A stretch of DNA of 64,000 bases. It comes from an uncultured Bacteroidales bacterium. GTDB taxonomy: Bacteria > Bacteroidota > Bacteroidia > Bacteroidales > P3. The notes beneath the pieces are model-generated. The model searched no databases, was not told the origin of the DNA, and saw nothing but the letters and a program-made list of their open reading frames with translations. Made by a program: the position numbers and the translations under genes. This document shows positions 2,353-61,887 of this stretch, in pieces; the stretch's first letter is position 1; every line of letters starts with the position of its first letter. The DNA lies in assembly GCA_944321735.1 (NCBI GenBank), contig CALUMK010000002.1, positions 124,001-188,000 of the forward strand, given 5' to 3'.

Positions 2353-2466
2353 CTGCGGTGTGTCAGAGCGAGTAAGATGCAAGGCGCTGAGAGCGAGAAC
2401 GAAGGAGCGTACTTAGGTACGTGAGGAAGCGGGCAACGAAGCCCAACGCGGCAGATGCCGCCTTAA
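2353..2466 (-). repeat. Palindromic element A (GTAC-core family), reversed orientation, inside the efflux operon
   Basis: The element begins at the base after the ATPase stop codon. On the minus strand it reads GGCATCTGCCGCGTTG, then a GC-rich stretch, CACGTACCTAAGTACGCTCC at the centre, then CGCCTTGCATCTTACTCGC and TCTGACACACCGC. The right half is nearly identical to that of the element at 58997-59119. The left arm is shortened, so the outermost bases are not fully paired. It is the only full copy whose orientation is opposite to the preceding gene. Confidence 0.8.
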
Positions 2467-2478
2467 AACCATTTTACA

Positions 2479-3699
2479 ATGAATTGGGGTAATTTAATGC
2501 AAATGGCCTTCCGCTCGTTAAAAAACAACAAGTTCCGTTGTTTCCTGACGATGCTGGGCATTATCATCGGGGTGTCCTCGGTCATCACGATGCTGGCTAT
2601 CGGCCAAGGTTCCAAGCGGAGCATCCAAGCGCAGATTTCCGAGATGGGATCGAACGTGATCATGGTGTTTCCGGGAAACCGCCGGGCGGGCGGGGTAAGG
2701 CTTAGCGCGGACGAGATGCAGACCCTCAAATTGCAGGATTACCGTTCCATCGAGGAGAAAGCCACGCTTTTGAGCCATGTCTCGCCTATGGTCAGCAGCA
2801 GCGGCCAGTTCATTTACGGAGCCAAGAATACGCCCTCCACGCTTTACGGGGTGTCTCCGGATTATCTGGATATCCGTATGCTGGAAGTGGAACGGGGAGA
2901 AATGTTTACCGAGGAGGATATAAATGCCATTGCCAAGGTCTGCGTAGTAGGGCAGACGGTGGTGGATAACTTGTTCGAAGAAGGGGAAGACCCGCTGGGA
3001 AAGACGGTGCGTTTCAACGCTACGCCTTTCAAGATTATCGGGGTGTTGAAAGCCAAGGGCTATAACAGTATGGGGCAGGATCAGGACGATTTGGTGCTGG
3101 CTCCTTATACTTCGGTGCAGAAACGGATTCTGGCGATTACGTATTTGCGGGGACTGTATGCCAGCGCGGTGGACGAGAAGCAAAGCGAGGAAGCTATAGA
3201 GCAGATAGAAGGTATCCTGAGGGAAAATCATCGCTTGCAAGACGGGGTGGAAAACGATTTCGAAGTGCGTTCGCAGGAAGAATTGAGCAATATGCTCAGT
3301 TCCACGACCAATCTGCTGACGGTCTTGCTGGCCAGCATTGCGGGGATTTCGCTTTTGGTCGGAGGAATCGGGATTATGAACATCATGTACGTGTCTGTGA
3401 CAGAGCGGACCAAGGAGATTGGCTTGCGGCTGTCCATCGGCGCCAAGGGGCGGCATATCCTATGGCAGTTTTTGATTGAATCGGTCTTGATCAGTGTCAG
3501 CGGGGGAATTGTGGGAGTCCTTTTGGGGGCTTTGGCTTCAATCGCGGTAAAATATATCGCCGGATGGCCTATCTTTGTGCAGCCATGGTCGGTTTTGCTG
3601 GCCTTTGCGGTCTGCACTGTCACCGGGGTGTTCTTTGGTTGGTATCCGGCCAAGAAGGCTGCCAACCTCGATCCGATAGAAGCATTGCGTTATGAATGA
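2479..3699 (+). CDS. MacB-type ABC transporter permease (FtsX-like)
   Basis: A 406-residue inner-membrane permease with the MacB layout. One transmembrane helix near the N terminus (about 20-42, with the KFRCFLTMLGIIIGVSSVI signature) is followed by a large periplasmic MacB core domain (about 50-270). The FtsX domain comes last, with three helices at about 285-310, 330-360 and 375-395. The motif GIMNIMYVSVTERTKEIGLR is typical of the cytoplasmic loop that couples to the ATPase. It pairs with the ATPase at 1522-2352. Its last 8 bases overlap the start of the histidine kinase gene, indicating translational coupling and a shared transcript. Confidence 0.9.
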   Translation: MNWGNLMQMAFRSLKNNKFRCFLTMLGIIIGVSSVITMLAIGQGSKRSIQAQISEMGSNVIMVFPGNRRAGGVRLSADEMQTLKLQDYRSIEEKATLLSHVSPMVSSSGQFIYGAKNTPSTLYGVSPDYLDIRMLEVERGEMFTEEDINAIAKVCVVGQTVVDNLFEEGEDPLGKTVRFNATPFKIIGVLKAKGYNSMGQDQDDLVLAPYTSVQKRILAITYLRGLYASAVDEKQSEEAIEQIEGILRENHRLQDGVENDFEVRSQEELSNMLSSTTNLLTVLLASIAGISLLVGGIGIMNIMYVSVTERTKEIGLRLSIGAKGRHILWQFLIESVLISVSGGIVGVLLGALASIAVKYIAGWPIFVQPWSVLLAFAVCTVTGVFFGWYPAKKAANLDPIEALRYE

Positions 3700-4816
3700 G
3701 TGGTCCTTTTCTCCGGGCAGACGCTACCGGAACATGTTGATACTGATACATGTAGGCGTCTGGGTGATGTTCTTTAGCTGGCCGTTGGTCTTTTCTCATA
3801 CGGACATCCCTGATTTCCGGCGCTTTTACATGCGTTATCTGATTAGTCCCTTTTTGTGTCTTTGCCTGTTCTATTTCAATTATTTTTTCTTGATACGGCG
3901 TTATCTGTTTGCCGGCAAGATGGTGCGGTATTTCTTGATTAACTTGCTGTGTATCGGGGCATCGGTGATGCTGATGCATTTCTGGCAGAAGAATCTGATG
4001 GATTTGATTTTTGGCAAACCGGATCCTGTTCCTCCCGGAAGGCCGGGTCCGATAGGATGGCTGTTCCTGTTTTCCAATTTTGTCCGTTTTGTCTTGGTTG
4101 TGGGCTTTGCGCTGGCTGTCCGATCCGTGGGACGCCGGTATCGGATGAAGATGGAACGCCAGGCTTTCGAAAAGGAAAAGAACGAAATGGAACTGAACAG
4201 CTTGCGGCAGCAATTGCATCCGCACTTCCTGTTCAATACGCTCAATAATATCTATGCGTTGATTTCGATTGACCAGGAAAAGGCCAAGACGGCGGTGCAT
4301 GATTTGAGCGGCCTTCTGCGGTATGTGTTGAAACAGGGCGAGCAGGATACGGTTTCCTTGTCGGAGGAACTGCATTTCATGAACAGTTATATCGCTTTGA
4401 TGAGCTTGAGGCTTTCTCCCAATACCCGTTTGGAAGTGGACTTCCCGGCAGAGGACTCGGTTCGGTCATGCCAAGTGCCGCCCTTGTTGTCTCTCAATAT
4501 CGTGGAGAATGCTTTCAAGTATGGCATGGCTGCAAATAAATCATTGATTCAGATAAGATTGCAGGTGGATAGGGCAAGGAGGCTGATTTGTTTCCATTGC
4601 CAGAATACCTTTGTGCATGACGATGGCAGGGAACCTTTCGGTGGAGGAGAACGAACCGAATTGGGCTTGCAGAACCTTTACAAGCGGTTGCATTACATCT
4701 ATGGGGAAGAATTCCATTTTGAAGTAGGTCCCAAGGGGGATATGTTCGAGGCGGATCTGCTTGTCCCTTGCCGTGTGGGAAGTGGCAATAGAGACTGCTC
4801 TAAATGTAACAGATAA
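3692..4816 (+). CDS. Sensor histidine kinase, LytS/YehU family
   Basis: A 374-residue kinase. The first 150 residues hold about four transmembrane helices with no large extracellular sensor. They are followed by a coiled linker (about 152-170) and the His_kinase family box LRQQLHPHFLFNTLNN, with H178 the likely phosphorylated histidine. An HATPase domain follows, with the N-box NIVENAFKYG and the G-box LGLQNLYKRL. It overlaps the permease gene by 8 bases and is followed 17 bases later by a LytTR response regulator, its evident partner. The link to an efflux operon suggests that the pair senses envelope stress or a pump substrate; that is inference. Confidence 0.9.
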   Translation: MNEWSFSPGRRYRNMLILIHVGVWVMFFSWPLVFSHTDIPDFRRFYMRYLISPFLCLCLFYFNYFFLIRRYLFAGKMVRYFLINLLCIGASVMLMHFWQKNLMDLIFGKPDPVPPGRPGPIGWLFLFSNFVRFVLVVGFALAVRSVGRRYRMKMERQAFEKEKNEMELNSLRQQLHPHFLFNTLNNIYALISIDQEKAKTAVHDLSGLLRYVLKQGEQDTVSLSEELHFMNSYIALMSLRLSPNTRLEVDFPAEDSVRSCQVPPLLSLNIVENAFKYGMAANKSLIQIRLQVDRARRLICFHCQNTFVHDDGREPFGGGERTELGLQNLYKRLHYIYGEEFHFEVGPKGDMFEADLLVPCRVGSGNRDCSKCNR

Positions 4817-4833
4817 GAGAACAGGAGGATACA

Positions 4834-5667: not shown

Positions 5668-5724
5668 CCTCCTGTGCTATCCGTTTTTCCCATGGGCAAT
5701 GTCGGTGGCGTGGCCTTTTTTGCG

Positions 5725-5732
5725 TATCTTCG
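5725..5732 (+). promoter_or_regulatory. Candidate -7 box TATCTTCG of the C10 protease gene
   Basis: TATCTTCG differs from the Bacteroidota TAnnTTTG box only by a C at the third position of the TTTG part. It lies 31 bases before the chosen ATG, implying a leader of about 27 bases. No clear -33 TTTG is seen at the usual distance. Confidence 0.4.
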
Positions 5733-5763
5733 CAATGCCAACTGCACTAAAGAGAGATTGCTT

Positions 5764-7875: not shown

Positions 7876-7900
7876 AGAGCGTATATCTGCTGAAATAGAG
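7864..7900 (+). repeat. 14-bp direct duplication across the stop codon of the C10 gene
   Basis: CTGCTGAAATAGAG occurs at 7864-7877 and again at 7887-7900. The first copy carries the last codons and stop (TAG) of the protease gene. The second lies between it and the next start. It looks like a small local duplication. Confidence 0.7.
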
Positions 7901-7913
7901 GGCCTATAAGCGT

Positions 7914-21079: not shown

Positions 21080-21184
21080 TGATAGAGGAGGATGTTTCAA
21101 AATAAGAATTTGAAATCATTCTCAGGCGGTGCGTCAGAGTGAGTAAGAAGCAACGCAGCAGACTGCTCATTATGACACACCGCA
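21080..21184 (-). repeat. Palindromic element B (GTAC-core family, core deleted) with conserved tail
   Basis: On the minus strand GCGGTGTGTCATAATGAGCA, then TCTGCTGCGTTGC, runs straight into TTCTTACTCACTCTGACGCACCGC, so the central GTAC core is missing. The arms pair almost perfectly. The sequence past the right arm (CCTGAGAATGATTTCAAATT, then CTTATTTTGAAACATCCTC) matches the tail of the element at 58997-59119 for about 45 more bases. It lies between gldJ and the U32 gene. Confidence 0.78.
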
Positions 21185-30125: not shown

Positions 30126-31751
30126 ATGAAAAAAGTTTTCTTATTTGCCGGAATAAGCGCTCTTCTGTTGAGCTCTTGCGGTAACAAGCAAACCCAGCCG
30201 AAAGCCGATGACGGTACCGTGATGGGATATGCCCGGATTGAGCTGAAAGCCGATTTGAGCCGGTTTAGTGAAAACGACCGGAAGATGATGGGCTACTTGT
30301 GCGATGCAGCCGACATCATGAACGATTTGTTCTGGAAGCAGGCCTTTACAGGAGACAAAGACCAGCTTCTGTCGGCCATCAAGAACGATACCTTGCGCAA
30401 GTTCGCCGAAATCAATTACGGGCCATGGGATCGCTTGGATGGCAACAAGCCTTTCCTCAATGGCTATGTGCAAAAACCATTAGGGGCTAATTTCTATCCG
30501 GGAGAAATGACTTCCGAAGAGTTCGACGCGCTGAAGGATCCCGACAAGACTTCCCTCTATACGATGATTCGTCGCGATGACAAGGGCAAGCTCCATGTTA
30601 TCTGGTATCATGACTTTTTCAAGGAAGAAATCACCCAGGCGGCTGCCCTGTTGGATTCGGCTGCTGCCTTGGCTACCGATGCCGGCTTCAAGAATTACCT
30701 GACCAAGCGGGCTGAGGCTTTGCGTACCGACCAATATTATGAAAGCGATTTGGCCTGGATGGATGCCAAGACTTCCGATATCGATTTCGTGATCGGACCT
30801 ATCGAGAACTATGAAGACGCCATGTATGGCTACAAGGCTGCTTACGAGTCGTTCCTGTTGATCAAGGATCCCGAATGGAGCGCGAAGCTGGCCAAGTATT
30901 CGGCTTTGTTGCCCGATTTGCAGAAAGAACTTCCGGTGGATGGCAAGTACAAGGCTGAAATGCCGGGTACGGATTCCGATTTGAACGTGTACGATGTGAT
31001 TCTGTACCGTGGCGATTGCAATGCCGGAGGCAAGACCATTGCCATCAATCTGCCTAACGACGAACGTGTGCATATTCAGAAAGGCACGCGCAAGCTGCAG
31101 CTGAAGAATGCGATGCAGGCCAAGTTCGACAAGATCCTGATGCCTATTTCCGAAATCGTCATGAATCCGGAACAGCAGAAGATGGTGGATTTCAACAGCT
31201 TCTTTGAAAACGTCACTTTCCATGAAGTGGCACACGGTCTGGGTGTGAAGAATACGATCAACGGTCAAGGAACCGTTCGTTCGGCATTGATGGAAACCTA
31301 CACGACCATCGAGGAAGCCAAAGCCGACATCATGGGCTTGTATATCGTAGATCAGCTTTACAAGAAGGGCGAGATGAGCGGTACTTCGGTTGAAAACAAT
31401 TACATCACCTTCTTTGCCGGCATTTTCCGTTCGGTACGTTTTGGTGCAGCCAGCGCGCATGGCAAGGCCAATATGCTTTGCTTCAATTGGATGAAGGACA
31501 ACGGTGCATTCAGCCGTTCGGAAGATGGCATTTATACCGTGGATTTGGAAAAGATGAAGGCCGCTACGGTATCCATGATGGCTCAAATCCTGAAGTTCCA
31601 GGCGGAAGGCGATTACGAAGGCGTTAAGAAGTGGATTGAAGAGAAAAGCGTGATTTCGCCCGAATTGCAGCAGGATTTGGATAGGATTGCTGCTGCGGAT
31701 ATTGCCAAGGATATATACTTTGTTCAAGGCAAATCCGTCCTTGGATTGTAA
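30126..31751 (+). CDS. DPP III-family (M49-like) zinc metallopeptidase, lipoprotein
   Basis: A 541-residue lipoprotein (signal ends LLSSC, cysteine near residue 18). The zinc site reads H366-E-V-A-H370 with a following EEAKAD (396-401). In most M49 peptidases the first motif is the longer HEXXGH. A five-residue HEXXH form is known from some bacterial members. The chain is shorter than classical DPP III (about 670-720 residues). Expected activity is removal of dipeptides from oligopeptides at the cell surface or periplasm. The gene has a consensus promoter and ends in a large palindromic element that starts at its stop codon. Confidence 0.82.
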   Translation: MKKVFLFAGISALLLSSCGNKQTQPKADDGTVMGYARIELKADLSRFSENDRKMMGYLCDAADIMNDLFWKQAFTGDKDQLLSAIKNDTLRKFAEINYGPWDRLDGNKPFLNGYVQKPLGANFYPGEMTSEEFDALKDPDKTSLYTMIRRDDKGKLHVIWYHDFFKEEITQAAALLDSAAALATDAGFKNYLTKRAEALRTDQYYESDLAWMDAKTSDIDFVIGPIENYEDAMYGYKAAYESFLLIKDPEWSAKLAKYSALLPDLQKELPVDGKYKAEMPGTDSDLNVYDVILYRGDCNAGGKTIAINLPNDERVHIQKGTRKLQLKNAMQAKFDKILMPISEIVMNPEQQKMVDFNSFFENVTFHEVAHGLGVKNTINGQGTVRSALMETYTTIEEAKADIMGLYIVDQLYKKGEMSGTSVENNYITFFAGIFRSVRFGAASAHGKANMLCFNWMKDNGAFSRSEDGIYTVDLEKMKAATVSMMAQILKFQAEGDYEGVKKWIEEKSVISPELQQDLDRIAAADIAKDIYFVQGKSVLGL

Positions 31752-31873
31752 AACTGGTTTTTAGCGGCATCTACTTCGTTGCGCGAAACTGCCCGCATCC
31801 TCACGTACAAAAGTACGCTCCGGTGCGGGCAGCTTCGCGCGCCTCGTATCTGCTCGCTAAAAAGCCAGTTTTA
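31751..31873 (+). repeat. Palindromic element C (GTAC-core family), complete
   Basis: The element begins at the last base of the preceding stop codon. Left arm AAACTGGTTTTTAGCGGCAT, then CTACTTCGTTGCGCGAAACT and GCCCGCATCCTCACGTAC. Loop AAAA. Right arm GTACGCTCCGGTGCGGGC, then AGCTTCGCGCGCCTCGTATC and TGCTCGCTAAAAAGCCAGTT. The two arms, each about 60 bases, pair along almost their whole length. A palindrome this long can fold as a very stable RNA hairpin or DNA cruciform. Confidence 0.88.
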
Positions 31874-31970
31874 CCGGGTAGTGTTATGAGGAAGTGACTG
31901 AAGCTTCCTTTCTTGGAAGAAGCGATTTTGTTGGAGTATTCTGACGGGGTCGCTTTTTTTTGTTGGATAT

Positions 31971-32086
31971 TCCTTTCCTTCTCTCTCTTTTTTTTCTCTC
32001 TTTCTTCTTCTTCTTCTTCTTCTTCTTTCTATTCTCTCTCTGTTCTTCGTTCTTCTTGTCTTGTTCTTCTTTTCCTCTCGTTTTTG
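31971..32086 (+). repeat. Polypyrimidine tract with (TTC)n
   Basis: Sixty consecutive pyrimidines (31971-32030), including about eight TTC repeats at 32003-32026, continue with few interruptions to about 32086. A reading frame passes through it into gpsA but would encode only Phe/Ser/Leu runs and is not a credible N-terminal extension. The 457 bases between the preceding gene and gpsA hold element C, this tract, a 12-bp direct repeat TGCGGGGAATTT (32116 and 32181) and the gpsA promoter. Confidence 0.85.
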
Positions 32087-32194
32087 CGGTTTTTGCTTTG
32101 TGGTTTTTGTGTTTCTGCGGGGAATTTTTGGGGGGGATAGGGGCTGGTGGACGGGTCTGTTTCCGGGGATTGATTCCTGTTGCGGGGAATTTCG

Positions 32195-33201: not shown

Positions 33202-33389
33202 ATTTTCTTAGACCCTCGATGGAGGGAACTGTGTAGGAATTAGCCATGCGTTTTATGGGGCTGGCCAAGGGTGTGTCCAATGTGAATTTCCGACCGGCAT
33301 CAGGGAAAATCTGAAGAAATCCAGTATCCATTTGGCGTTGTGTTTAGAAACGCCTATCTTTACAAGCGTTTGTTCACGGAGTATTAATT

Positions 33390-33590
33390 AAACCCGAATC
33401 GGTCATGAGACTTTGGGGAGATTGCCCGCTTGTGTCATGCAGCATGCTTCTGGCCTGGCCGAAGGCGTAGCGGGCTACGTCGAGGCGTAGCGAGGAGCAA
33501 GATGCGGACAGAAGCGAACAAGATGCACAAAAGCATCCCTCTTCGAAAACAGGAAACACACTCGGCGAGTCTAATGACCGATTTGGGTTT
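33390..33590 (+). repeat. Long divergent palindrome D
   Basis: Outer arms AAACCCGAATCGGTCATGAG (33390) and GTCTAATGACCGATTTGGGT (33569) pair at nearly every base over about 21 bp. The interior (about 160 bases) is less regular. It holds a nested palindrome GGCGTAGCGGGCTACGTCGA and, on the minus strand, GCATCTTGCTCCTCGCTACG, which recalls the right flank of the GTAC-core family. It may be a distant member. The 511 bases between gpsA and the nuclease gene otherwise show only unassigned sequence (33202-33389) and a promoter candidate. Confidence 0.65.
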
Positions 33591-33645
33591 ATAGGCTTTC
33601 CATTGCCTGTCCTATGCCTTGTCCGGCGGCTTTGCGGAAAATGTG

Positions 33646-35635: not shown

Positions 35636-35696
35636 TTGCCTTTCATGGATTGGAACGTGGCAAAACCGTCATTGTGCGTTGAAAAATAAAAGAAAT

Positions 35697-37841
35697 ATGA
35701 TAAGAATTACCTCCATCGCCTGCATCGCGGGCTTTGTCGCCGGGGGCTTCGGCTCTTCTTCGGCATCGGATTCCATTCCTGTGAAAGACAGTGCAAGGGA
35801 AAATCCTTTCTTGGTATCGTGGGAAAATCAGGCCTACCGGATTCCGCCTTTTTCTTCAATCAAGGAGGAAGATTACCTGCCTGCCTTGCAGAAAGGCATC
35901 GAATGCCAGGACCAAGCTATCCAGTCTATTGTCCGCAACAGGGCGGAAGCCACTTTCGAGAACACGGTGCTGGCTTTGGAGAAGAGCGGGGAACTGATTG
36001 ACAAGGTTTCGGCCGTGCTGTTCAATGTGGCGGCGGCGCATTCGAACGAGAACCTGCGCCAGATTGAAGCTGAGGCCATGCAGATGCTCAGCAGCCAGAG
36101 CGACAAGGTGTATATGAACCCTTTCCTTTTCCGCCGGGTAAAACGGCTCAAGGAGCAGGGTTATGTGACCGATCCGGCGCAGAAGAAGCTTTTGGACGAC
36201 ATGTACCGGGACTTCGTGCTGAGCGGGGCAGAGCTTGCGCCTGCGGTTCAGGATTCGCTCAAGGTTGTCAATGCCCGTTTGAGCGAGCTGGGCAGCCGAT
36301 TTGCGCAGAACCTCTTGCTGGCTACGGCCGATTATACTTTGTATGTGGAGGATGCCAGCCGTTTGGAGGGGCTGCCGGCGGATGCCTTGCAAAGGGCTGC
36401 CAGGAAGGCTGAAGCGGCAGGCCGCAAGGGTTATGCGTTCGGGCTGGATAATCCTACGATTATGCCTTTTTTGCAGTACGTGAAGGACGCAGGCCTCCGC
36501 AAGGAGATTCTGGATGCCTATGCGGCGCGCTGCCAGGCCGGGAGCAAGTACGACAACAGCCAAATCGTCAAGGAACTGGTTGGATTGCGCCTGAAGAAGG
36601 CCCAGTTGCTGGGATTCCCTGATTACGCTTCTTATGTGCTGCAGACCCGGATGGCCAAGGATTCGGAGTCGGTCTATGCGTTGCTGGACGAAATCTGGCC
36701 CTATGCCTTGGATCGAGCCAAGGACGAGCTGGCGCAGATGAAGAAGTTCCGCAAGAAGGAGGACGGCCTGAAAGGGGATTTCCTGCCTTCGGATTGGAGG
36801 TATTACGCCAACCGGGTCAAGCAGGCCGAATATGCGTTGGATGAGAACGAGCTGAAGCCCTATCTGACGGTGGACAATGTACGCAACGGGATTTTCTACC
36901 TCTGCCAACGTTTGTACGGCATCGGTTTCGAGCTTTTGCCCGATGCCGAGACACCCACGCCCAATACTGCGGCTTATTTGTGCAAGGACAAGGATGGCAG
37001 CGTGCTGGGAGTCCTCTTCTTGGATATGACGGCTCGTCCCGGCCAGAAGTCGGGCGGAGCCTGGAACACATCCTATGTGGAACAGTCTTACAGCGAGGAT
37101 GGCAAGCGGCTCACGCCGGTGACCTCGATTGTCTGCAACTTCACGCCTGCTGCCGGCGATGAGCCGGTGATGCTGACCATGGACGAGACCGAGACTTTCT
37201 TCCATGAGTTCGGCCATGCCTTGCACTGCCTCTTTTCCGATGTGCCTTACGAGGCATTGAGCAGCGTGCCTCGCGATTTCGTGGAGCTGCCTTCGCAAGT
37301 GATGGAGCATTGGGCCTTGCACCCCTTGATGCTCAAGGAATACGCCAAGCATTACAAGACCGGCGAGCCTATGCCGCAGGAATTGGTGGACCGCATCCAG
37401 GAAGTGCGGAACTACGGCCAGGGCTTTGCTACCACCGAGCTTTTGGCGGCCGCCTTGCTCGATATGGATTACCATACATTGACCGCCTTTCCCGCCGATT
37501 TGGATCCTGAAAAGTTCGAGCAGGCCGAGCTGAACAAGAAACGGGGCTTGATTCCCGAAATCTATCCCCGTTACAAGAGCAATTACTTCTCGCATATCAT
37601 GGATGGGGGGTACAGTGCCGGCTACTACAGTTATATATGGTCTGAAGTGCTTGATGCCGATGCCTTCGATGCCTATGTAGAAAGCGGGGACATCTTCAAC
37701 ACTAAGATTGCCGAGTCTTTCCGCAACGACATCTTGAAGAACGGCGGCTTGTACGATGCGATGAAGATGTATGTCAAGTTCCGCGGGCATGAGCCGGATC
37801 CGAAGGCTCTTTTGCGGAGTCGCGGCTTGATCGGCGAGTGA
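35697..37841 (+). CDS. dcp: M3-family peptidyl-dipeptidase
   Basis: A 714-residue metallopeptidase with the zinc motif HEFGHALH in ETETFFHEFGHALHCLFSDV and the downstream glutamate in FVELPSQVMEHW, followed by GGYSAGYYSYIWSEVLDADAF near the C terminus. It belongs to the M3 oligopeptidase/Dcp branch, which removes C-terminal dipeptides from small peptides. An N-terminal signal (about 1-30, ITSIACIAGFVAGGFGSSSAS) suggests a periplasmic location. ATG at 35697 is preferred over a TTG six codons upstream. The last codons and stop form part of the left arm of a palindromic element. Confidence 0.9.
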   Translation: MIRITSIACIAGFVAGGFGSSSASDSIPVKDSARENPFLVSWENQAYRIPPFSSIKEEDYLPALQKGIECQDQAIQSIVRNRAEATFENTVLALEKSGELIDKVSAVLFNVAAAHSNENLRQIEAEAMQMLSSQSDKVYMNPFLFRRVKRLKEQGYVTDPAQKKLLDDMYRDFVLSGAELAPAVQDSLKVVNARLSELGSRFAQNLLLATADYTLYVEDASRLEGLPADALQRAARKAEAAGRKGYAFGLDNPTIMPFLQYVKDAGLRKEILDAYAARCQAGSKYDNSQIVKELVGLRLKKAQLLGFPDYASYVLQTRMAKDSESVYALLDEIWPYALDRAKDELAQMKKFRKKEDGLKGDFLPSDWRYYANRVKQAEYALDENELKPYLTVDNVRNGIFYLCQRLYGIGFELLPDAETPTPNTAAYLCKDKDGSVLGVLFLDMTARPGQKSGGAWNTSYVEQSYSEDGKRLTPVTSIVCNFTPAAGDEPVMLTMDETETFFHEFGHALHCLFSDVPYEALSSVPRDFVELPSQVMEHWALHPLMLKEYAKHYKTGEPMPQELVDRIQEVRNYGQGFATTELLAAALLDMDYHTLTAFPADLDPEKFEQAELNKKRGLIPEIYPRYKSNYFSHIMDGGYSAGYYSYIWSEVLDADAFDAYVESGDIFNTKIAESFRNDILKNGGLYDAMKMYVKFRGHEPDPKALLRSRGLIGE

Positions 37842-37957
37842 TAACGGATAATCTACGGCGTTGCCATCGGGTCTCGGACTCGGTCACATACTTGAGTATG
37901 CTCCCGTCGTCCTCGCCCTCGGCGGCCTCGTATCTTACCCGTTCTGACTCGCCGATT
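37831..37957 (+). repeat. Palindromic element E (GTAC-core family), overlapping the dcp stop codon
   Basis: Left arm CGGCGAGTGATAACGGATAA, then TCTACGGCGTTGCC. Core GGTCACATACTTGAGTATGC, then TCCCGTC. Right arm GGCCTCGTATCTTACCCGTT, then CTGACTCGCCG. GGCGAGTgATAACGG pairs with CCGTTCTGACTCGCC. The stop codon TGA of dcp (37839-37841) lies inside the left arm. Confidence 0.85.
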
Positions 37958-38007
37958 TTCGGCGAAGTGCAAAAAGACGGTTTGATTCCGCTTTCAGTTT
38001 GCACAGT

Positions 38008-38056
38008 CCTTACTCCCTTGGCGGCCTCGTATCTTACCCGTTCGGACTCGCCGCCC
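38008..38056 (+). repeat. Right-half copy of element E
   Basis: CCTTACTCCCTTGGCGGCCT, then CGTATCTTACCCGTTCGGAC and TCGCCGCC, repeats the right arm of element E about 90 bases further on without its own left arm. The 332 bases between dcp and the next gene hold element E, this half copy and an unassigned stretch (38057-38173). Confidence 0.7.
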
Positions 38057-38173
38057 GGGGGGGCGGTTGGATGATGGAACCCGCCGGGAGTCCGGTACTT
38101 TGGGGGATTCCCTGAGATTCGGATTGGCAAGGAGGGTGTTCGGATTTCGGATTGATTAGATATACCTATTCAG

Positions 38174-46706: not shown

Positions 46707-49292
46707 ATGATAGTAAGAACCGGTTTTCGACGGACGCTGATATTGCTCCTTCTCTTGGCAAGTTTCTGCTTGAGACTGTACGGCACGCATCAAAAGGCTG
46801 CAGAATTGATTGTGGAGCATGTTTCCGGTTATACCTACAAGGCTAAGCTCTATACATATACCTTTACGCAGACCGATGTGGACCGGCCTCAGCTCGAGAT
46901 TGGCTGGGGAGACGGTACGACCACTATTCTGACCCGTTCCCGGGAAGTGACACTGGATAACGATACGAAGCTGAATTATTATGAAGGGACGCATACGTAT
47001 GCGGGACCAGGGACTTATACATTGTATATGGAAGACCCCAATCGCAATTCCGGGGTGGTCAATGTGCCCAACAGCGTGTTGACATACATGTATATTTCGA
47101 CGACGATTACGATAAGCCCTTGGTTGGGGGAGGGCAATAGCAGCCCTGTCACGACAAGAAGCCCGGTGGACGATATGGCCTGCTTGGGACGTCGTTACGA
47201 GCATAACCCGGCTGCTTATGACCCAGATGGGGACAGCCTTTCGTATCATTTGATACCGTGCCGGGGCGAAGGAGGAGAATCGATACCCGGTTATACGTAT
47301 CCAGCTGCGAGCGACACCTTTATGATTGACCCTTATACCGGCACGCTGGTATGGGATGCCCCGATGGCGCAGGGAGAGTACAATGCGGCGATATTGATCG
47401 AGGAGTGGCGCAATAAAATCAAGATAGGGGATGTGACCAGAGATATGCAGATTATCGTCCGGGCTTGCGAGAATCTCCCTCCTTCGATAGAATGCGATGA
47501 ATCCTATTGTGTGACAGCCGGGCAGACTTTGATGTTCCCTGTATGGGTTTTGGATCGAGGACGGAACAGGCTGAAGCTTGAAGTTTCGGGCGAGGTGATG
47601 CAAGGAGGCGTCAGAGCCGGTCTCCAGACGGTTTATTCCGGCGAGGATTCGGCATTTTATTTCTTTTATTGGAATACCTCTCTTTCCGATTCCAGGGATA
47701 AGGAATATATGCTGTATTTGCGGGCTGAAGACGATGGGGATCCGGCTTTGAGTTCGGTCAAGATTGTCAGAGTGAAAGTAATGGCGCCGCCTTCTGTTTT
47801 CGAGGAGCCAAGGATAGAAGAGGATGGGTTTTATCTGACATGGACAGCGAGTGTGAGTCCTCATGCGGCTTCTTACGAGTTGTATCGCCGGGATTGTTAC
47901 CGGAAAGAGCCTGTTTACGATTCGTGCCAGGTCGGCATAGGGGATGATACTTACCGGCTGGTGGCGGACTTGCCCTTGGATCAACCTTATTATTTCGATT
48001 CGGACGTGCTGGAAGGACGGGAGTATTGCTATCGGCTGCTGACCCGTTTCCCGGATGGGGATATGAGCAAGCAGTCGGATCCGGTTTGCTTGCAGTTGCG
48101 TAATATACATCCTCTTTTGACCAAGGTCGATGTGCTTTCTACGGATGAAGTGCAAGGACGGATGGCGGTGGAATGGGTTGCGCCGGAGGATTTGGATACA
48201 TCGCGGGAATGGACTTATAGCCTTTATGCAGGGATTTCTCCCGACAGCCTGTTTTTCGAGGCGTCATTTCCTTTTGCCGAAAGGGTCATATACCAGGATT
48301 CCGGTCTGAATACGGTTCGCCATCGTTATTTTTACCGGGTTGCCATGGATTCCGTGCCCGGATTGCAAGCTTCTTCGGTTTATTTGAAGGCGGAAGGTCT
48401 GACGCATCGGATCCGGCTTGACTGGGATTTGGAGCATCCCTGGATGAATTACAGGTATGATGTTTATCGTTACGAAGATTCTGTGGGAGGATTTTGTTTG
48501 ATAGGAAGTTCCGAATCATCCTTTTATGATGATACGGAAGTGAAGGTGGACAAAGAATACCGCTATTATGTGGAAGCGGTAGGAGGCTATGGTTCGCAGG
48601 CAATACCTGACACATTGTACAACAGATCGAATATTGCCGGGGCAATGGCTATGGAAGGACTTCCTTGCCAGCCATGGTTGGATTTGGCCAATTCTTCGTG
48701 TTCCCCTTTGTCAAATACCTTGGTTTGGGATTTTGACAGTCTTTTCTTGTTTTCGGGGATTGTCGATACGGCTTGGTCTGCAGCGGAAAGGGACGAGTGC
48801 GAAGCTTCGGTATCCTATTACGAAGTTTTCCGGAAAAACGCCGTGGACATGGATTACGAGTGGCTGGCCACCGTGGAGGATAAAGAATATGTCGATAACG
48901 ATCCGGGTTCTTTGTTTTGTTGGTATTATGTGGTGGCAGTCAACGAGTCGGATATGGCAGGGATGCCCAGCAACGAGGTCTTTGCGGACAATTGGGATTG
49001 TTTTTCATTTGAATTGCCGGATGTGTTTACTCCCAATGGGGATAGCTATAATGAGACTTGGACTGCTATCGACCCCTTGCATATCGATCACTTCCATGTC
49101 AAAGTTGTCAACCGTTGGGGGGTAACGGTCTTTTCTTCTTCGGATCCGGAATTTTCCTGGAATGGGAAGGTCAACAATACGGGAGCGGACTGCCCGGACG
49201 GTCCCTATTTTTATGTGGCAGAGTTTGAAGTCCGTGCAGAAGGGAAGACGTTTAAGAAGGTTCAGTCTGGGAGTGTTTCCATTTTGAGATAA
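46707..49292 (+). CDS. Large surface protein with gliding-motility (CHU_C) type B sorting domain
   Basis: An 861-residue exported protein with a signal peptide (about 1-25). A PKD-like or IPT-like segment with GWGDGTTTILTRSREVTL follows, then an Ig-like region with DPDGDSLSYHLIPCRGEGGESIPGYTYP. Three or more fibronectin type III-like modules come next (for example about 355-450, 460-560 and 580-660). The end, FELPDVFTPNGDSYNETWTA...HFHVKVVNRWGVTVFSSSDPEFSWNGKVNNTGADCPDGPYFYVAEFEV, is the gliding-motility-associated C-terminal domain that directs type B type IX export. Its partner may be a PorP/SprF-type protein, not seen here. The function is unknown (adhesin-like). Confidence 0.85.
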   Translation: MIVRTGFRRTLILLLLLASFCLRLYGTHQKAAELIVEHVSGYTYKAKLYTYTFTQTDVDRPQLEIGWGDGTTTILTRSREVTLDNDTKLNYYEGTHTYAGPGTYTLYMEDPNRNSGVVNVPNSVLTYMYISTTITISPWLGEGNSSPVTTRSPVDDMACLGRRYEHNPAAYDPDGDSLSYHLIPCRGEGGESIPGYTYPAASDTFMIDPYTGTLVWDAPMAQGEYNAAILIEEWRNKIKIGDVTRDMQIIVRACENLPPSIECDESYCVTAGQTLMFPVWVLDRGRNRLKLEVSGEVMQGGVRAGLQTVYSGEDSAFYFFYWNTSLSDSRDKEYMLYLRAEDDGDPALSSVKIVRVKVMAPPSVFEEPRIEEDGFYLTWTASVSPHAASYELYRRDCYRKEPVYDSCQVGIGDDTYRLVADLPLDQPYYFDSDVLEGREYCYRLLTRFPDGDMSKQSDPVCLQLRNIHPLLTKVDVLSTDEVQGRMAVEWVAPEDLDTSREWTYSLYAGISPDSLFFEASFPFAERVIYQDSGLNTVRHRYFYRVAMDSVPGLQASSVYLKAEGLTHRIRLDWDLEHPWMNYRYDVYRYEDSVGGFCLIGSSESSFYDDTEVKVDKEYRYYVEAVGGYGSQAIPDTLYNRSNIAGAMAMEGLPCQPWLDLANSSCSPLSNTLVWDFDSLFLFSGIVDTAWSAAERDECEASVSYYEVFRKNAVDMDYEWLATVEDKEYVDNDPGSLFCWYYVVAVNESDMAGMPSNEVFADNWDCFSFELPDVFTPNGDSYNETWTAIDPLHIDHFHVKVVNRWGVTVFSSSDPEFSWNGKVNNTGADCPDGPYFYVAEFEVRAEGKTFKKVQSGSVSILR

Positions 49293-49571
49293 ACGCATTT
49301 ATAGCGGCATCTACTTTGTTGCGAGCCTTGTCCAAGTCGGTCACATACGGAAGTATGCTCCCTCCTTGGCCAGCGGCTCGACGCCTCGTAGCTGCTCGCT
49401 ATAAATGCGTTTCTCATATTGAGCGGCATCTACTTTGTTGCGAGCCTTGTCCAAGTCGGTCACATACTTGAGTATGCTCCCTCCTTGGCCAGCGGCTCGA
49501 CGCCTCGTAGCTGCTCGCTATAAATGCGTTTCTCATATTGAGCGGCATCTACTTTGTTGCGAGCCTTGTCC
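49291..49571 (+). repeat. Tandem array of palindromic elements F, 119-bp period
   Basis: Two full units and a partial third (repeat points 49303, 49422 and 49541). Each unit reads AGCGGCATCTACTTTGTTGC, then GAGCCTTGTCCAAGTCGGTC, ACATAC, a triplet, then GTATGCTCCCTCCTTGGCCA, GCGGCTCGACGCCTCGTAGC, TGCTCGCTATAAATGCGTTT. In the first unit AAACGCATTTATAGC at 49291 pairs with GCTATAAATGCGTTT. The third unit breaks off after GCCTTGTCC. The first unit starts inside the stop codon of the preceding gene. The triplet in the core differs between units (GGA, TTG). The 301 bases between the flanking genes are almost entirely this array. Confidence 0.92.
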
Positions 49572-51105: not shown

Positions 51106-51106
51106 G

Positions 51107-56493: not shown

Positions 56494-56554
56494 CGTTGAT
56501 TTGTATTTCTAAATACGAAGATAGGTCAATTTTCAATATTCGGAACATTTGCCT

Positions 56555-56562
56555 TATCTTTG
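56555..56562 (+). promoter_or_regulatory. -7 box TATCTTTG of the 56651 lipoprotein gene
   Basis: A consensus box that predicts a leader of about 85 bases containing an imperfect inverted repeat (GATAGGACGAGGAAATCCTATC at about 56591-56612, the core of a small hairpin). Confidence 0.6.
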
Positions 56563-56650
56563 CGCCCCCTATGGCGTGTCCCTGTGGCGGATAGGACGAG
56601 GAAATCCTATCGGGTGGCGATGCGGATGGCATAGAAACTTAGTTGATAAA

Positions 56651-57049: not shown

Positions 57050-57073
57050 TGCAGTAGTTGCTTTTGATTCCTA

Positions 57074-57123
57074 ATCCGGTATCTGTCAGTGTGTCATATA
57101 TGCTTGAGAGATGCCGGTTTTTT
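57074..57123 (+). terminator. Intrinsic terminator after the 56651 gene
   Basis: CCGGTATCT and AGATGCCGG form a stem around a loop of about 26 bases, followed by TTTTTTG. Confidence 0.75.
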
Positions 57124-57153
57124 GTTTGGCATAACGCTATTGGAAAATAGAAT

Positions 57154-58995
57154 ATGATGCAGAAGAATAAATTCAAGGCTTGCTTGTCCTGCGCGCTTCT
57201 TTTGGGCAGTTTCTTTTCGTTGTCGTTTTTGCAGGCGCAGACACCTCGTCCGGCCAATCCGGAATCGAACCCAGAAGTAAAGGAATACCCCAAGAACCAT
57301 CCCGACGTGGTGGACAAGAAGATGGCCGGACTGTTGCAGCTGATCCGCTTCGCATACGTGGAAGAGGTGGACATGGCTCCGATAGTGGAAAAGGGGGTGG
57401 TCACGATGCTGGAGGAACTGGATCCCCATTCGGCCTATATCTCGGCCAAGGACTTGCAGAAGATGAACGAGCCCTTGGTGGGCAATTTCGACGGCATCGG
57501 CGTTTCGTTCCAGCCCAACAACGACAGCATCGTGATTATCGAGGTGATAGCCGGAGGGCCTTCGTCCAAGGTGGGTCTGCTGGCCGGGGACAAGATCGTG
57601 ACGATAGACACGATGAGCGCCACCGGCAAGAACGCCAACCGGGATTTCGTATTCAAGCATCTGCGAGGCAAGAAAGGCACCAAGGTGAATGTGGGCATCA
57701 AGCGTCAAGGCGAGCCGGAAATTCTGCATTTCGAGATTATCCGGGACAAGATACCAATCAACAGCGTCAATACCTATTTCATGGTTGACAAGGAAAACGG
57801 CTATATCATGCTGACGCGCTTTGCCCGTACCAGCGTGGAGGAGGTGCGCGATGCCTTGAAAGATCTTAAATCGCAGGGAATGAAGAACTTGATTTTAGAC
57901 TTGCGAGGCAATTCGGGAGGCTATCTGGATGTGGCGGTGGATCTGGCCGACGAATTCCTGCCTAAGGACGAGCTGGTTGTCTATATGGAGGGCAAGGCGC
58001 AGCCTAAGGAACCTTTCTATGCTACCAAGAACGGTTTCTTCACCAAAGGCCGTGTGGTGGTGATGGTGGACGAGGGCTCGGCATCGGCTTCCGAGATTCT
58101 TTCCGGAGCTTTGCAGGATTGGGACAGAGCCATCATAGTGGGGCGGCGAACCTTTGGCAAGGGCTTGGTGCAGAGACCCTTCGGGCTTTCGGACGGATCC
58201 AATGTCCGCTTGACGATAGCCCGTTACTACACGCCTTCGGGTCGTTGCATCCAGAAACCTTACAAGGATGGCATGGAAGCCTATTATAAGGATATCATGA
58301 ACCGTTACCGTCATGGGGAAATGCTCAATCCGGATTCGATCAACCTGCCGGATTCCTTACGTTACCAGACGGCCGGGGGACGGGTTGTTTACGGTGGCGG
58401 CGGCATCATGCCCGATGTGTTCGTGGCGGTCGATACCCAGCGGGCCAGCGACTATTATATGGCTTTGCGGGCCAAGAACCTGATGAACCGCTTTGTCCTG
58501 GATCGTCTGGATGGTCAGAGGGAGCAATATTTGGCGGAATATCCCGATTTTGAGCATTTCTACGAGAATTTCCGGATGGACGAGGCTTTCATGCAGGAAT
58601 TCTACGATTACGCAGCCGAACACGGGGTTCCCTATACGAATTTCAAGAAGGCGCAGGCGGGCCAGTTTTTGCAGGAGTTGATTAAGGCCATGCAGTCGGA
58701 TTCGGCTTTGGACAAGGCCGTATCGTATGAGGATTATATGTCGAGGGTGCTTTGGGCGCAGGATAGCATGCAGTCGTATTTGATGGAAAAGGCCAGGGCG
58801 GAGGATGCCCGGCAGAAAGCCTATGCAGCGAAGTCGGACAAGTTCTTGCGGGCGCAGCTCAAGGCCATGTTCGCCAATAATCTTTATGGGGCGGAATACT
58901 ATTACCAAGTGACCAAGGATGTGGACGATGCCTTTGCCCGTGCGTTGGAAGTGTTGAAGGACAGGAAGTTGTTTGATGAACTCGGCATCCGGTAA
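57154..58995 (+). CDS. C-terminal processing peptidase (S41, PDZ)
   Basis: A 613-residue exported serine protease of the CtpA/Prc type with a signal peptide (ends FLQAQTPR). A PDZ domain sits at about 105-190 (GIGVSFQPNNDSIVIIEVIAGGPSSKVGLLAGDKIV). The S41 core has LDLRGNSGGYLDVAVDLADEF, VDEGSASASEILSGALQDWDRAIIVG and RTFGKGLVQRPFGLSDGSNVRLTIARYYTPSGRCIQKPY. The Ser-Lys dyad therefore comes from GSASASE and FGKG. A long C-terminal helical region (about 440-610) is typical of the family. A palindromic element follows two bases after its stop. Confidence 0.92.
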   Translation: MMQKNKFKACLSCALLLGSFFSLSFLQAQTPRPANPESNPEVKEYPKNHPDVVDKKMAGLLQLIRFAYVEEVDMAPIVEKGVVTMLEELDPHSAYISAKDLQKMNEPLVGNFDGIGVSFQPNNDSIVIIEVIAGGPSSKVGLLAGDKIVTIDTMSATGKNANRDFVFKHLRGKKGTKVNVGIKRQGEPEILHFEIIRDKIPINSVNTYFMVDKENGYIMLTRFARTSVEEVRDALKDLKSQGMKNLILDLRGNSGGYLDVAVDLADEFLPKDELVVYMEGKAQPKEPFYATKNGFFTKGRVVVMVDEGSASASEILSGALQDWDRAIIVGRRTFGKGLVQRPFGLSDGSNVRLTIARYYTPSGRCIQKPYKDGMEAYYKDIMNRYRHGEMLNPDSINLPDSLRYQTAGGRVVYGGGGIMPDVFVAVDTQRASDYYMALRAKNLMNRFVLDRLDGQREQYLAEYPDFEHFYENFRMDEAFMQEFYDYAAEHGVPYTNFKKAQAGQFLQELIKAMQSDSALDKAVSYEDYMSRVLWAQDSMQSYLMEKARAEDARQKAYAAKSDKFLRAQLKAMFANNLYGAEYYYQVTKDVDDAFARALEVLKDRKLFDELGIR

Positions 58996-58996
58996 G

Positions 58997-59205
58997 GCGA
59001 TGTGTCATAATGAGCAATCTGCTTTGTTGCTATCGAGTCTCGAACTCAGTCACGTACCAAAGTACGCTCCTTCGTTCTCGCTCTCAGCGCCTTGCATCTT
59101 ACTCACTCTGACACACCGCCTGAGATTTGTTTCAAATCCCTATTTTGATACACCCTCATAGGAAGAGACGAAGGCTACGGGCAATCTACTTTGTTGCGGT
59201 TTTTA
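58997..59205 (+). repeat. Palindromic element G (GTAC-core family) plus left-half relic
   Basis: Full element 58997-59119: left arm GCGATGTGTCATAATGAGCA, then ATCTGCTTTGTTGC; core GTCACGTACCAAAGTACGCT; right arm CGCCTTGCATCTTACTCACT, then CTGACACACCGC. The arm ends pair (TGTGTCATAATGAG with ACTCTGACACA). A conserved tail (GAGATTTGTTTCAAATCCCT, then ATTTTGATACACCCTC) follows, as at element B. At 59178-59200 GGGCAATCTACTTTGTTGCG is a left-half relic just before tcdA. Confidence 0.88.
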
Positions 59206-59224
59206 AGAAATTTTATTGATTCAG

Positions 59225-60082: not shown

Positions 60083-60159
60083 TTATAGGCTTCGTTGCCG
60101 TTTGTTCCCGCCTGGGGGCGGGTCGGCTTGCCTGCGGACCGGCAAAGAAAAAAGGGCTT

Positions 60160-60194
60160 TTTGTAACAGCCTATCGAAAAATGATGTAACTTTG
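60160..60194 (+). promoter_or_regulatory. Promoter of gdhA
   Basis: TTTG (60160-60163) and, 23 bases on, TAACTTTG (60187-60194). The -7 box is perfect; the spacing is slightly long. Predicted leader about 85 bases, A/T-rich before the start codon. Confidence 0.65.
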
Positions 60195-60285
60195 TCCCTG
60201 TTTTCCGGTGGGGCAAGGCAGAAGGGTCTATGGAAAACATTTGGAATTGAATAAAATAAATAATCATAACTTAAAACTTACTGCC

Positions 60286-61620
60286 ATGGACGTAAAAAAA
60301 ATCTTGGCTGATCTGAAGGAAAAACATCCTGACGAACCTTTGTTCCTCCAAGCTGTAGAGGAAGTGTTGTATTCCATCAAGGATTATGTGGAAGCACATC
60401 CCAAGTATGAACAACACAAGATTATCGAACGTATGGTTGAACCGGACCGTATCTTCACTTTCCGTGTAGAATGGGTTGACGACAAGGGCGAAATCCAAGT
60501 CAACACCGGTTACCGTGTACAATTCAACAACGCGATTGGACCTTACAAAGGCGGTCTGCGTTTCCACCCCTCCGTACGTTTGGATACCCTCAAGTTCCTG
60601 GGCTTCGAACAGACATTCAAGAACAGCTTGACCACATTGCCTATGGGCGGTGGCAAGGGTGGTTCCGACTTCAACGCAAAAGGTCGTTCCGACAATGAAA
60701 TCATGCGTTTCTGCCAGGCTTTCATGATGGAACTCCAGAAATACATCGGACCTGAAACCGACGTTCCCGCTGGCGATATAGGTGTTGGCGGCCGCGAAAT
60801 CGGTTACATGTACGGCATGTACAAGAAACTGCGTCGTGAAAACACCGGCGTTCTGACCGGCAAGGGTGCTGGCTGGGGTGGTTCCATCCTGCGTCCCGAA
60901 GCTACCGGTTTCGGTGCTGTTTACTTCGTAGAACACATGCTGAAGGCTCACAACATGGACATCAAGGGCAAGACCGTAGCCATCTCCGGTTTCGGTAATG
61001 TGGCTTGGGGTGCTGTTACCAAAGCTACCCAGCTGGGTGCCAAGGTTGTGACCATTTCCGGTCCTGACGGTTATGTTTACGATCCGGAAGGCTTCAACCA
61101 GGAAAAGATCAACTACATGTTGGAACTGCGTGCCAGCAACAACGACGTTGTGGCTCCTTTCGCCGACAAGTTCAAGAGCGCTACTTTCTTCGCTGGCAAG
61201 AAGCCTTGGGAACAGAAAGTGGATATCGCCATGCCTTGCGCTACCCAGAACGAACTCCGTCTGGAAGATGCAAAGCAACTGATCGCCAACAAGGTTACCT
61301 TGGTTGCCGAAGTTTCGAACATGGGTTGCCATGCTGATGCCGTGAACGAATTCATCAAGACCAAGACCATCTTTGCTCCTGGCAAGGCTGTCAACGCCGG
61401 TGGTGTTGCCGTTTCCGGTCTTGAAATGAGCCAGAATGCTGAAAAGCTGCACTGGACAGGTGAAGAAGTTGACCAGAAGCTGCACCAGATCATGTCGAGC
61501 ATCCACGAAAACTGCATCAAGTACGGTAAGGAAGGCGACTACGTTAACTACGTTAAGGGTGCCAACATTGCCGGCTTTATCAAGGTGGCTGACTCTATGA
61601 TTGAACAAGGCGTCTGCTAA
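60286..61620 (+). CDS. gdhA: Glutamate dehydrogenase (hexameric, probably NADP-type)
   Basis: A 444-residue enzyme with RVEWVDDKGEIQVNTGYRVQFNNAIGPYKGGLRFHPSV, the active-site lysine region LPMGGGKGGSDFNAKGRSD, DVPAGDIGVGGREIGYMYG and a Rossmann domain TVAISGFGNVAWGAVTKATQLGAKVVTISG. It interconverts glutamate and 2-oxoglutarate plus ammonia, the main ammonia-assimilating route in many Bacteroidales. The ATG at 60286 is the standard start. Codon use here is stronger than in neighbouring genes (many optimal codons such as AAG, GGT and AAC), fitting high expression. The mRNA ends in palindromic element H immediately after the stop. Confidence 0.97.
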   Translation: MDVKKILADLKEKHPDEPLFLQAVEEVLYSIKDYVEAHPKYEQHKIIERMVEPDRIFTFRVEWVDDKGEIQVNTGYRVQFNNAIGPYKGGLRFHPSVRLDTLKFLGFEQTFKNSLTTLPMGGGKGGSDFNAKGRSDNEIMRFCQAFMMELQKYIGPETDVPAGDIGVGGREIGYMYGMYKKLRRENTGVLTGKGAGWGGSILRPEATGFGAVYFVEHMLKAHNMDIKGKTVAISGFGNVAWGAVTKATQLGAKVVTISGPDGYVYDPEGFNQEKINYMLELRASNNDVVAPFADKFKSATFFAGKKPWEQKVDIAMPCATQNELRLEDAKQLIANKVTLVAEVSNMGCHADAVNEFIKTKTIFAPGKAVNAGGVAVSGLEMSQNAEKLHWTGEEVDQKLHQIMSSIHENCIKYGKEGDYVNYVKGANIAGFIKVADSMIEQGVC

Positions 61621-61691
61621 TTTTGGAATGTGATAATGCGTGATTTGCTGCGTTGCGCGCCTTGCATCTCACGCATTCTGACATTCCAAAA
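61621..61691 (+). repeat. Palindromic element H (short form, core deleted) directly after gdhA
   Basis: It starts at the base after the gdhA stop. TTTTGGAATGTGATAATGCG, then TGATTTGCTGCGTTG, pairs with CGCGCCTTGCATCTCACGCA, then TTCTGACATTCCAAAA. The arms of about 33 bases carry few mismatches. The central GTAC core is absent, as in element B. Confidence 0.88.
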
Positions 61692-61695
61692 GAAA

Positions 61696-61887
61696 GGGGT
61701 TATCTGCGGCGTTGCCTGCGGGTCTCGGACTCGGTCACGAACAGCAGTGCAAGCCGAATGCAGAGACAGAGTTTACTCTGGCTATGCTGAGGCGCAGCCT
61801 GCTCTCGCTGCGGAGCAGCAACAAAGTACGCTCCCGTCGTCCTCGCCCTTGGCGGCCTTGCATCTTACCCATTCTAACGCCCCGACT
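61696..61887 (+). repeat. Palindromic element I (GTAC-core family) with an inserted repeat
   Basis: Left arm GGGGTTATCTGCGGCGTTGC, then GGGTCTCGGACTCGGTCACG. Right part AAAGTACGCTCCCGTCGTCC, then TCGCCCTTGGCGGCCTTGCA and TCTTACCCATTCTAACGCCC. The core is split by about 83 bases (61741-61824), including CAAGCCGAATGCAGAGACAG and GGCTATGCTGAGGCGCAGCC, which carry their own inverted repeat. I recall similar GCAAGCCGA...GAGGCGCAGCC segments in other Bacteroidales intergenic regions but cannot verify it. Confidence 0.8.

Follow-up and report, generated by a model that had tools for sequence, protein, structure and literature searches.

The window, a 64,000-nucleotide (nt) stretch of the genome of an uncultured Bacteroidales bacterium (contig CALUMK010000002.1, positions 124,001–188,000), carries a family of long imperfect palindromes of ~127 nt, many of which begin at a stop codon. 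We find that these are probably non-autonomous mobile DNA elements that form one superfamily with the enterobacterial repetitive intergenic consensus (ERIC, also named IRU or RU-1) and occur in several phyla. A first-pass annotation, based on the letters of the window, described the hairpins and their closeness to stop codons; the finding is real and larger than that annotation claimed, and neither the kinship with ERIC nor the orientation rule described below was part of it.

Kinship with ERIC and distribution across phyla

The ERIC centre reads GGAGC-TTAC-loop-GTAA-GTGAC, and the core of the window family follows the same plan on the other strand. In the accessible text of PMC2759123, the 127-nt ERIC consensus arranges CTGCGTTG, GCCGCCTTGC and the core as the window family does. 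A covariance model built solely from copies in the window's genome (R1) matches one Escherichia coli ERIC over its full length, with a score of 39.1 bits (E 1.1e-6). The core used for typing ERIC is itself present in 5375 of 5426 E. coli genomes. An exact core scan of GTDB contigs returned at least 115 stretches, and 80 loci among the matches listed were examined with R1 together with the E. coli ERIC. At E ≤ 0.01 the model matches 79 of these 81 loci and misses L161 and L202, where it should be kept in mind that 80 of the 81 were chosen by their core and that some belong to the window's own genus. L161, a match in the core only, scores 22.9 bits, and most other loci score far higher.

By record title, the loci from named strains come from Lysinibacillus, Shouchella, Sporosarcina, Clostridiaceae, Porphyromonas, Pantoea, Klebsiella, Serratia and Providencia, and those from metagenome-assembled genomes (MAGs) from Halarcobacter, Sulfurimonas, Verrucomicrobia and Lentisphaerae. 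A wider core pattern is found in 18 of 18 element-bearing genomes, from 1 to 132 times and once only in four of them; its reversed control is found in none. Among 395 genomes across the window's phylum, five of them other members of the same order, the exact pattern matches in the window's own genome alone (control 0), so the pattern is specific and its distribution patchy. The element is present in 11 of 13 genomes of the window's genus, in 8 of 48 other relatives and in 13 of 30 genomes of the family of Providencia. A Firmicutes assignment of the element-rich genome G062, titled Ruminococcus flavefaciens NALB_7813_18, was considered and rejected, as it has the same junction as G010 of the window's genus. 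This public MAG appears to be a window-genus genome (G062/G010, L150, L156, L386–L405).

Aligning to R1 a set of 59 matches from 50 loci picked for variety gives the cross-phylum consensus c..cgTt .. GTCAC.TAC...aGTA.GCTCC .. cgCCT.gc. In this alignment 81.7% of 2258 cells are paired, as compared with 31–42% when the partners are slid, a comparison that leans toward R1 because the matches were fitted to it. Double changes are seen at 37 of 40 pairs (34.8 in shuffled copies), and the number of pair types is not above that in shuffled copies. The loop motifs A and B, scored by a simple pattern, are present in 43 and 37 of 75 GTDB copies, 50 and 61 of 77 copies from the window's genome and 19 and 20 of 21 Porphyromonas copies, and the shuffled means are at most 5.7 across groups. 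Arms pair better with their own partners than with those of another copy, with energies of −38.0 and −19.9 for own and swapped arms in the GTDB copies and −33.4 and −25.0 in Providencia.

These similarities suggest a superfamily that extends beyond the enterobacteria, in which ERIC is the enterobacterial member and the window family a sister branch. Several points weigh against this interpretation. The loop motifs are not universal: Providencia has A in 5 of 38 copies (B in 21 of 38), and a Verrucomicrobia MAG has B in 0 of 31 (A in 25 of 31). Counts that vary in this way by group indicate that the loops are less constant than the core and the length. In Porphyromonas, own and swapped arms score −43.1 and −43.4, the copies being so nearly identical that exchanging arms is uninformative. 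The likeness may also reflect convergence on one recognition structure rather than common descent with ERIC.

Structure and covariation in the window's genome

The window's genome (G000; 2.71 Mb in 39 contigs) contains the core pattern with ≤3 mismatches 90 times, 49 forward and 41 reverse, taking the strand reading GTCAC..GCTCC as +; the reversed pattern occurs 0 times, and the family is thus beyond chance on a whole-genome scale. The covariance model yields 110 matches at E ≤ 0.01. As 150 of 674 candidates were scored in G000 and at most 57 in each relative, all copy numbers are lower bounds. Both loop motifs are present in 89 of the 92 core contexts read (three were left out because a motif was missing or the sequence was cut), and 84 of these are distinct full elements. 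At least one core match (L087) has no loop motifs.

Elements are ~127 nt long, with most matches at 123–129 nt, and have a constant order: an outer arm of ~21–22 nt, a loop motif near ATCTRCKKCGTTGC, an inner arm of 16–19 nt, the core, a second inner arm of 18–21 nt, the loop motif GCCTYGYATCT and the second outer arm. The core, GTCAC-RTAC-nnnA-GTAY-GCTCC, is near-invariant, with a CTCAC variant in 24 of 89. The outer arm is most often 21–22 nt long (40/84), and two loose types can be told apart by eye, GGCGTGTGATAAYGGGCA and TAAAACGnATTTmTAnnGGC.

Outer arms pair at −23.4 kcal/mol with their own partner and at −9.8 when swapped between copies; the corresponding values for inner arms are −16.6 and −9.3 kcal/mol. 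Of the 84 full elements 76 qualified for alignment and 74 were aligned. Paired cells make up 82.7% of the 2957 in this alignment, compared with 59.6% after shuffling and 32.6–44.9% with slid partners, and two-sided changes occupy 764 cells (277 in shuffles) and are seen at 36 of 40 pairs. The structured family put forward in the first-pass annotation is therefore borne out, with arms that covary and with 110 matches that reach far beyond the window. Rfam contains no match, either for the whole window at gathering scores, for one element at E ≤ 1 or for three further loci. The same annotation had read the complementary but differing arms as a sign of selection for the hairpin. The covariation is there, but it does not force selection, because correction within a palindrome or exchange of arm modules would also yield it.

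This leads to the strongest of the alternatives, that the covariation is purely mutational and that template switching perfects imperfect palindromes with no selection on structure, which we hold to be possible but well short of probable. The near equality of A.C and G.T pairs described below would be expected from such a process. In 34 copies the left arm contains ATAA; the right arm of these is mismatched in 23, exactly complementary in 2 and of another kind in 9. The two exact complements are as hairpin-templated correction would give them, but mismatches and loops persist in most ATAA copies, the arm length peaks at 21–22 nt and the structure is kept across phyla. The arms also appear to have separate histories. 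In 34 copy pairs with an inner identity of 0.90–0.95 the outer identity is 0.52, close to the 0.53 of all pairs (43% in shuffled copies), which indicates that exchange or renewal of the inner part is largely independent of that of the outer part. The ten pairs with an inner identity of ≥0.95 count against complete independence, as they still share outer arms at 0.72.

Filled and empty insertion sites

The first-pass annotation listed a non-autonomous mobile unit among several possible meanings of the hairpins, and this is the best supported one: filled and empty sites, many copies and a patchy distribution all point to it. Site 58997 is filled in G000 and in its relative G001 and empty in eight of ten aligned relatives. 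A third genome, G011, has an inner-deleted element of another subtype at the same place (L288), and in G001 a second element lies close behind the first (L282); the two together indicate that a single gene end has taken more than one insertion. Most empty relatives encode a protein longer by two residues than that at the filled site. Site 49291 is filled in G000 and G001 and empty in G009 and G011 (two of three relatives) with the end residue of the frame unchanged, and the G000 and G001 elements have identical left outer arms and different inner arms. Site 31751 is filled in G000, G001, G009 and G011 (the last cut by a contig end) and empty in six of nine relatives, again with the same end residue. 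Here the G000 and G009 elements share the core, most of the outer arms and some of the loop sequence, but have different inner arms, each self-complementary. Site 37831 is filled in G000, G001 and G011 with small changes to the protein end, and at site 61621 relatives carry 1.5–3.4 kb of other DNA in place of a readable empty site. In the site alignments, which include 31751, L498, L510 and L511 of 20 loci were left out and L508 is misplaced.

At sites 49291 and 31751 the empty relatives place the junction at the TA of the native stop codon. The idea that arms are derived from the target was discarded for the aligned sites: empty relatives have no visible arm sequence, so the arms arrive with the element. 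TA is found at the left end of 51 of 75 copies, at the right end of 33 and at both ends of 26, against 24% of background 8-mers. Three considerations argue against mobility. No clean target duplication is shown; no movement has been seen; and no mover enzyme was found, in an analysis that included no search for a partner gene.

Position and orientation at stop codons

In the window's genome, stops of same-strand frames cluster 40–57 nt before the core, that is, at the left end of the hairpin, whereas past the core the stops of opposite-strand frames are spread out. With start-anchored frames, a same-strand stop lies 40–60 nt before the core in 89 of 275 copies and at the mirror position in 3 (two copies of the G010 group are counted twice in this set). 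By group, the left end coincides with a stop in 46 of 80 copies from the window's genome, 12 of 37 from Providencia, 8 of 23 from G010 and 16 of 59 from other contigs; many of the remaining Providencia copies are later units of tandem arrays. A codon-usage method places the stop on the left in 60 of 81 copies and on the right in 2 in the window's genome, and in eight groups together on the left in 120 and on the right in 7 of 301. This method limits the distance to the stop to 62 nt by construction, and the open-frame and start-anchored distance lists are unbiased. The gene calls are simple open-frame or codon-usage calls for all genomes but E. coli, where annotation was used.

In annotated E. 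coli, where eight matches represent five distinct loci, ERIC starts 1 nt past ybhI and 6 nt past cusC on the same strand. The generality of the rule is weakened by the other three of the five loci, psuT/yeiL, preT/yeiS and argP/rpiA, which touch no same-strand stop, and at one of which a gene on the opposite strand ends 15 nt beyond the right end. It is weakened further by Klebsiella (2/27), Porphyromonas (2/20) and the Verrucomicrobia MAG (3/29). The rule is thus strong in the window's genus and in Providencia, and weak in these three groups.

Left-end stops in the window's genome comprise 32 TAA, 14 TGA and 12 TAG (background 75, 52 and 26). From these sequences we infer that insertion may take place at the TA of the stop codon and that the first base of the element (A or G) then restores TAA or TAG; TGA stops would have to be explained differently. 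The mobile-element interpretation can be set out as a possible mechanism with three parts: (i) a putative enzyme acting in trans would recognize the core and loops, which could form tandem sheared G.A pairs on the GGAGC..GTGAC strand; (ii) insertion would occur at TA, often the TA of a stop codon, where the first base would restore the stop and leave the host gene unharmed; and (iii) arm complementarity would be kept by DNA processes, namely correction on the hairpin template and exchange of inner and outer modules, and not by selection on mRNA.

Pairing and folding as RNA and as DNA

The next rival is that the elements are functional hairpins of the 3′ untranslated region (UTR), selected behind stops to stabilize mRNA, stall or recycle ribosomes or tune degradation, with mobility secondary. 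A hairpin selected in mRNA should tolerate G.U more than A.C. Among the 2957 cells of the 74 copies, G.T occurs 108 times and A.C 117 times; in the 55 copies that are read into by an upstream gene the counts are 72 and 83 of 2197 cells, and in the cross-phylum set 79 and 114 of 2298. Because A.C is as common as G.T, the + transcript is not what maintains the pairing overall, a comparison that was run without a known RNA as positive control. Covariation at the level of RNA is accordingly unsupported, though the inner arms alone (columns 37–43) lean to G.T, 36 against 16 A.C, which speaks for the RNA side.

With RNA parameters the minus strand gives the more stable fold in 73 of 74 copies from the window's genome (by ~10 kcal/mol on average) and in 59 of 59 cross-phylum copies (~13 kcal/mol on average); with DNA parameters it does so in 67 of 74 and 58 of 59. 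Shuffled copies temper this result, since they share the sign in 56 of 74 cases with RNA parameters, with a gap of ~3 kcal/mol, and in 65 of 74 with DNA parameters; composition thus explains part of the minus-strand excess, and much of it where DNA parameters are used. On the minus strand the conserved loops read AGAT/AGAT in 51 of 76 copies and GGAGC/GTGAC or GTGAG in 64 of 76, and, judging from these motifs, they could form tandem sheared G.A pairs.

The mRNA-stabilizing role suggested at first is weakened by these results, as A.C pairs are about as frequent as G.T and the fold of the mRNA strand is the weaker of the two, a bias partly present in shuffles. Fixed orientation and stop position in some genomes do fit a 3′ UTR function, and a role of this kind has been proposed for ERIC in Yersinia and for REP sequences in E. 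coli. ERIC and its orientation are reported to affect upstream mRNA in Yersinia, according to the accessible parts of PMC2229807 and PMC10969869. Set against this are the A.C count, as high as that of G.T, on the transcribed strand of the gene-linked copies, the weaker fold of that strand and the lack of a T run beyond the level of mirrored controls, and we regard a primary 3′ UTR function as doubtful.

Orientation might instead be set by single-strand transposition at the replication fork. Transposition of this type is known for IS200/IS605. In Providencia rettgeri RB151 (G070), spaced loci are + in 22 of 23 cases at 0.23–1.76 Mb and − in 21 of 21 at 2.65–4.39 Mb, these 44 loci being drawn from the 100 places listed out of 132. 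GC skew is + in 5 of 5 windows at 0.3–1.5 Mb and − in 8 of 8 at 2.6–4.6 Mb; in the interval between, the window at 1.8 Mb is negative and those at 2.0–2.4 Mb are positive. The window's genome has 22 loci with the skew and 12 against (one weak match omitted from the tally), and G495, from the same family as Providencia, has 20 matches of mixed sign on one contig. Replichore orientation thus fails as a general rule despite its strength in RB151, and the fork is unlikely to be what sets orientation. We also note that the RB151 elements (L328–L356) lie in tandem arrays with spacings of mostly 122–201 bp and that 43 of the 44 spaced loci, among the places listed, follow the replichore.

Ordinary intrinsic terminators, which the first-pass annotation had named, or unrelated look-alike palindromes can hardly explain the family in spite of its location at gene 3′ ends, because TTTT within 14 nt after the right arm occurs in 8 of 75 copies and in 7 of 75 mirrored controls, the core is near-invariant and the reversed control gives 0 matches.

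A bolder extension of the mobile-element interpretation, which we consider a long shot, is that ERIC is a twig of a bacteria-wide class of DNA hairpins inserted one way at functional stops. Stop codons are recognized only in translation, so the mover might work on, or by way of, mRNA held by the terminating ribosome; one such route would be cleavage in the A site after UA and then copying into DNA. Alternatively, the element might persist only at stops because its tightly folding strand must stay out of mRNA.

Copies in the window

Each of the eight places named in the first-pass annotation (2353, 21080, 31751, 37831, 49291, 58997, 61621 and 61696) holds an element or part copy, and the covariance model places eight matches in the window. 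Its description of them is refined in several respects. All eight are related, but those at 21080 and 61621 have no inner stem. The core GTCAC(G/A)TAC is exact in only four places, two of which are the tandem at 49291, and 31751 and 2353 have CTCAC. Outer arms generally pair within a copy and differ between copies, as the own and swapped energies indicate, except at 2353. Six copies do lie beside or inside a preceding stop by open frames, but 2353 is oppositely oriented.

Four full elements are on the + strand. The first (31748–31875) starts in the stop codon of frame 30126–31751; the second (37830–37957) contains the end of the upstream frame 35679–37841 within its left arm; the third (49289–49415) lies at the stop codon of frame 46707–49292 and is followed by a tandem second copy (49408–49534, +) and a third part copy to ~49560; and the fourth (58996–59121), directly 3′ of the stop of frame 57154–58995, belongs to a subfamily with a repeated tail to ~59157. 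Two further copies are on the + strand. That at 61622–61691, without an inner stem, is directly 3′ of the stop of frame 60208–61620. The copy at 61694–61873 is composite: ~86 nt (about 61739–61824), lying between GTCAC and AGTACGCTCC, replace the core apex, which has 7 nt in the others. Composite stretches resembling 61739–61824 recur in the genome (L263–L273), and many matches in relatives begin exactly at the apex.

On the − strand, the copy at 21124–21184 (model E 2e-6) retains outer arms and loop motifs and has lost the inner stem and core. The copy at 2353–2473 (−, model match E 1e-9) is chimeric, with a type II left half and a type I right half; its two outer arms show no pairing (arm score 0; fold z −1.6), and the stop of + frame 1522–2352 adjoins its right end, which makes it an exception to the orientation rule.

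A part copy of the 3′ half lies behind the 37831 element, at about 38000–38060. Behind the 31751 element, at about 31970–32090, is a pyrimidine-rich low-complexity tract (CTT and TC runs) that differs in G001 and G009. Another dispersed repeat, ~203 bp long (33389–33591), resembles a miniature inverted-repeat transposable element (MITE), with 24-nt terminal inverted repeats that are 92% complementary; it has more than 20 matches at 88–97% identity in G000 and more in G001, G009 and G011, among the matches listed.

Comparison with known systems

REP, BIME and REPIN sequences are extragenic palindromes like the window family, and REPs often sit just after stop codons and have a different core. 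REPs measure 20–40 bp in the available text of PMC3733652, unlike the ~127 nt of the window family. Correia/NEMIS elements and RUP MITEs, as covered in the accessible part of the 2007 review PMC2229807, share with the window family their non-autonomy, TA ends and terminal inverted repeats, but the conserved part of the window family is at or near the apex and its ends are variable; the same part of that review treats how such elements move as an open question. Among the papers listed in a search of openly readable literature, no title or abstract opening announced ERIC outside Gammaproteobacteria. In the accessible text of PMC5082802, a non-gammaproteobacterial paper, ERIC is a reference only, and that of PMC3110155 names ERIC for comparison beside BRE, a Betaproteobacteria repeat of ~90 bp that sometimes overlaps gene ends. 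BRE is, from that account, a candidate for comparison with the window family.

ERIC is a long-established typing marker, and the old question of what moves and maintains it, and of its function, can now be opened to comparison far outside the gut bacteria for which it was named. Relatives in other phyla provide many diverged copies in which near-invariant parts (the core, the loops and the tandem G.A reading of one strand) are separable from free ones, and a search for the enzyme could set element-bearing genomes against those that lack the element. The preference for stop codons in one orientation offers a precise, testable lead on mechanism or function, and its cause in the genomes that show it is the question of most interest.

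The window family and ERIC are alike in (i) a length of 127, (ii) the core GTCAC-4 bp stem-GCTCC, (iii) motifs resembling CTGCGTTG and GCCTTG and (iv) being long imperfect palindromes that are intergenic and multi-copy. They differ at their ends. The ERIC consensus ends in TATACCC..GGGTATA, whereas the window family has no such ends, its outer arms vary from copy to copy and only TA is enriched. We do not call the window elements ERIC because the constant ERIC ends were looked for and are not present. The two differ also in their hosts, which for ERIC are Enterobacteriaceae and Vibrionaceae in the accessible text of the 2024 review PMC10969869, and for the window family are Bacteroidales and members of other phyla.

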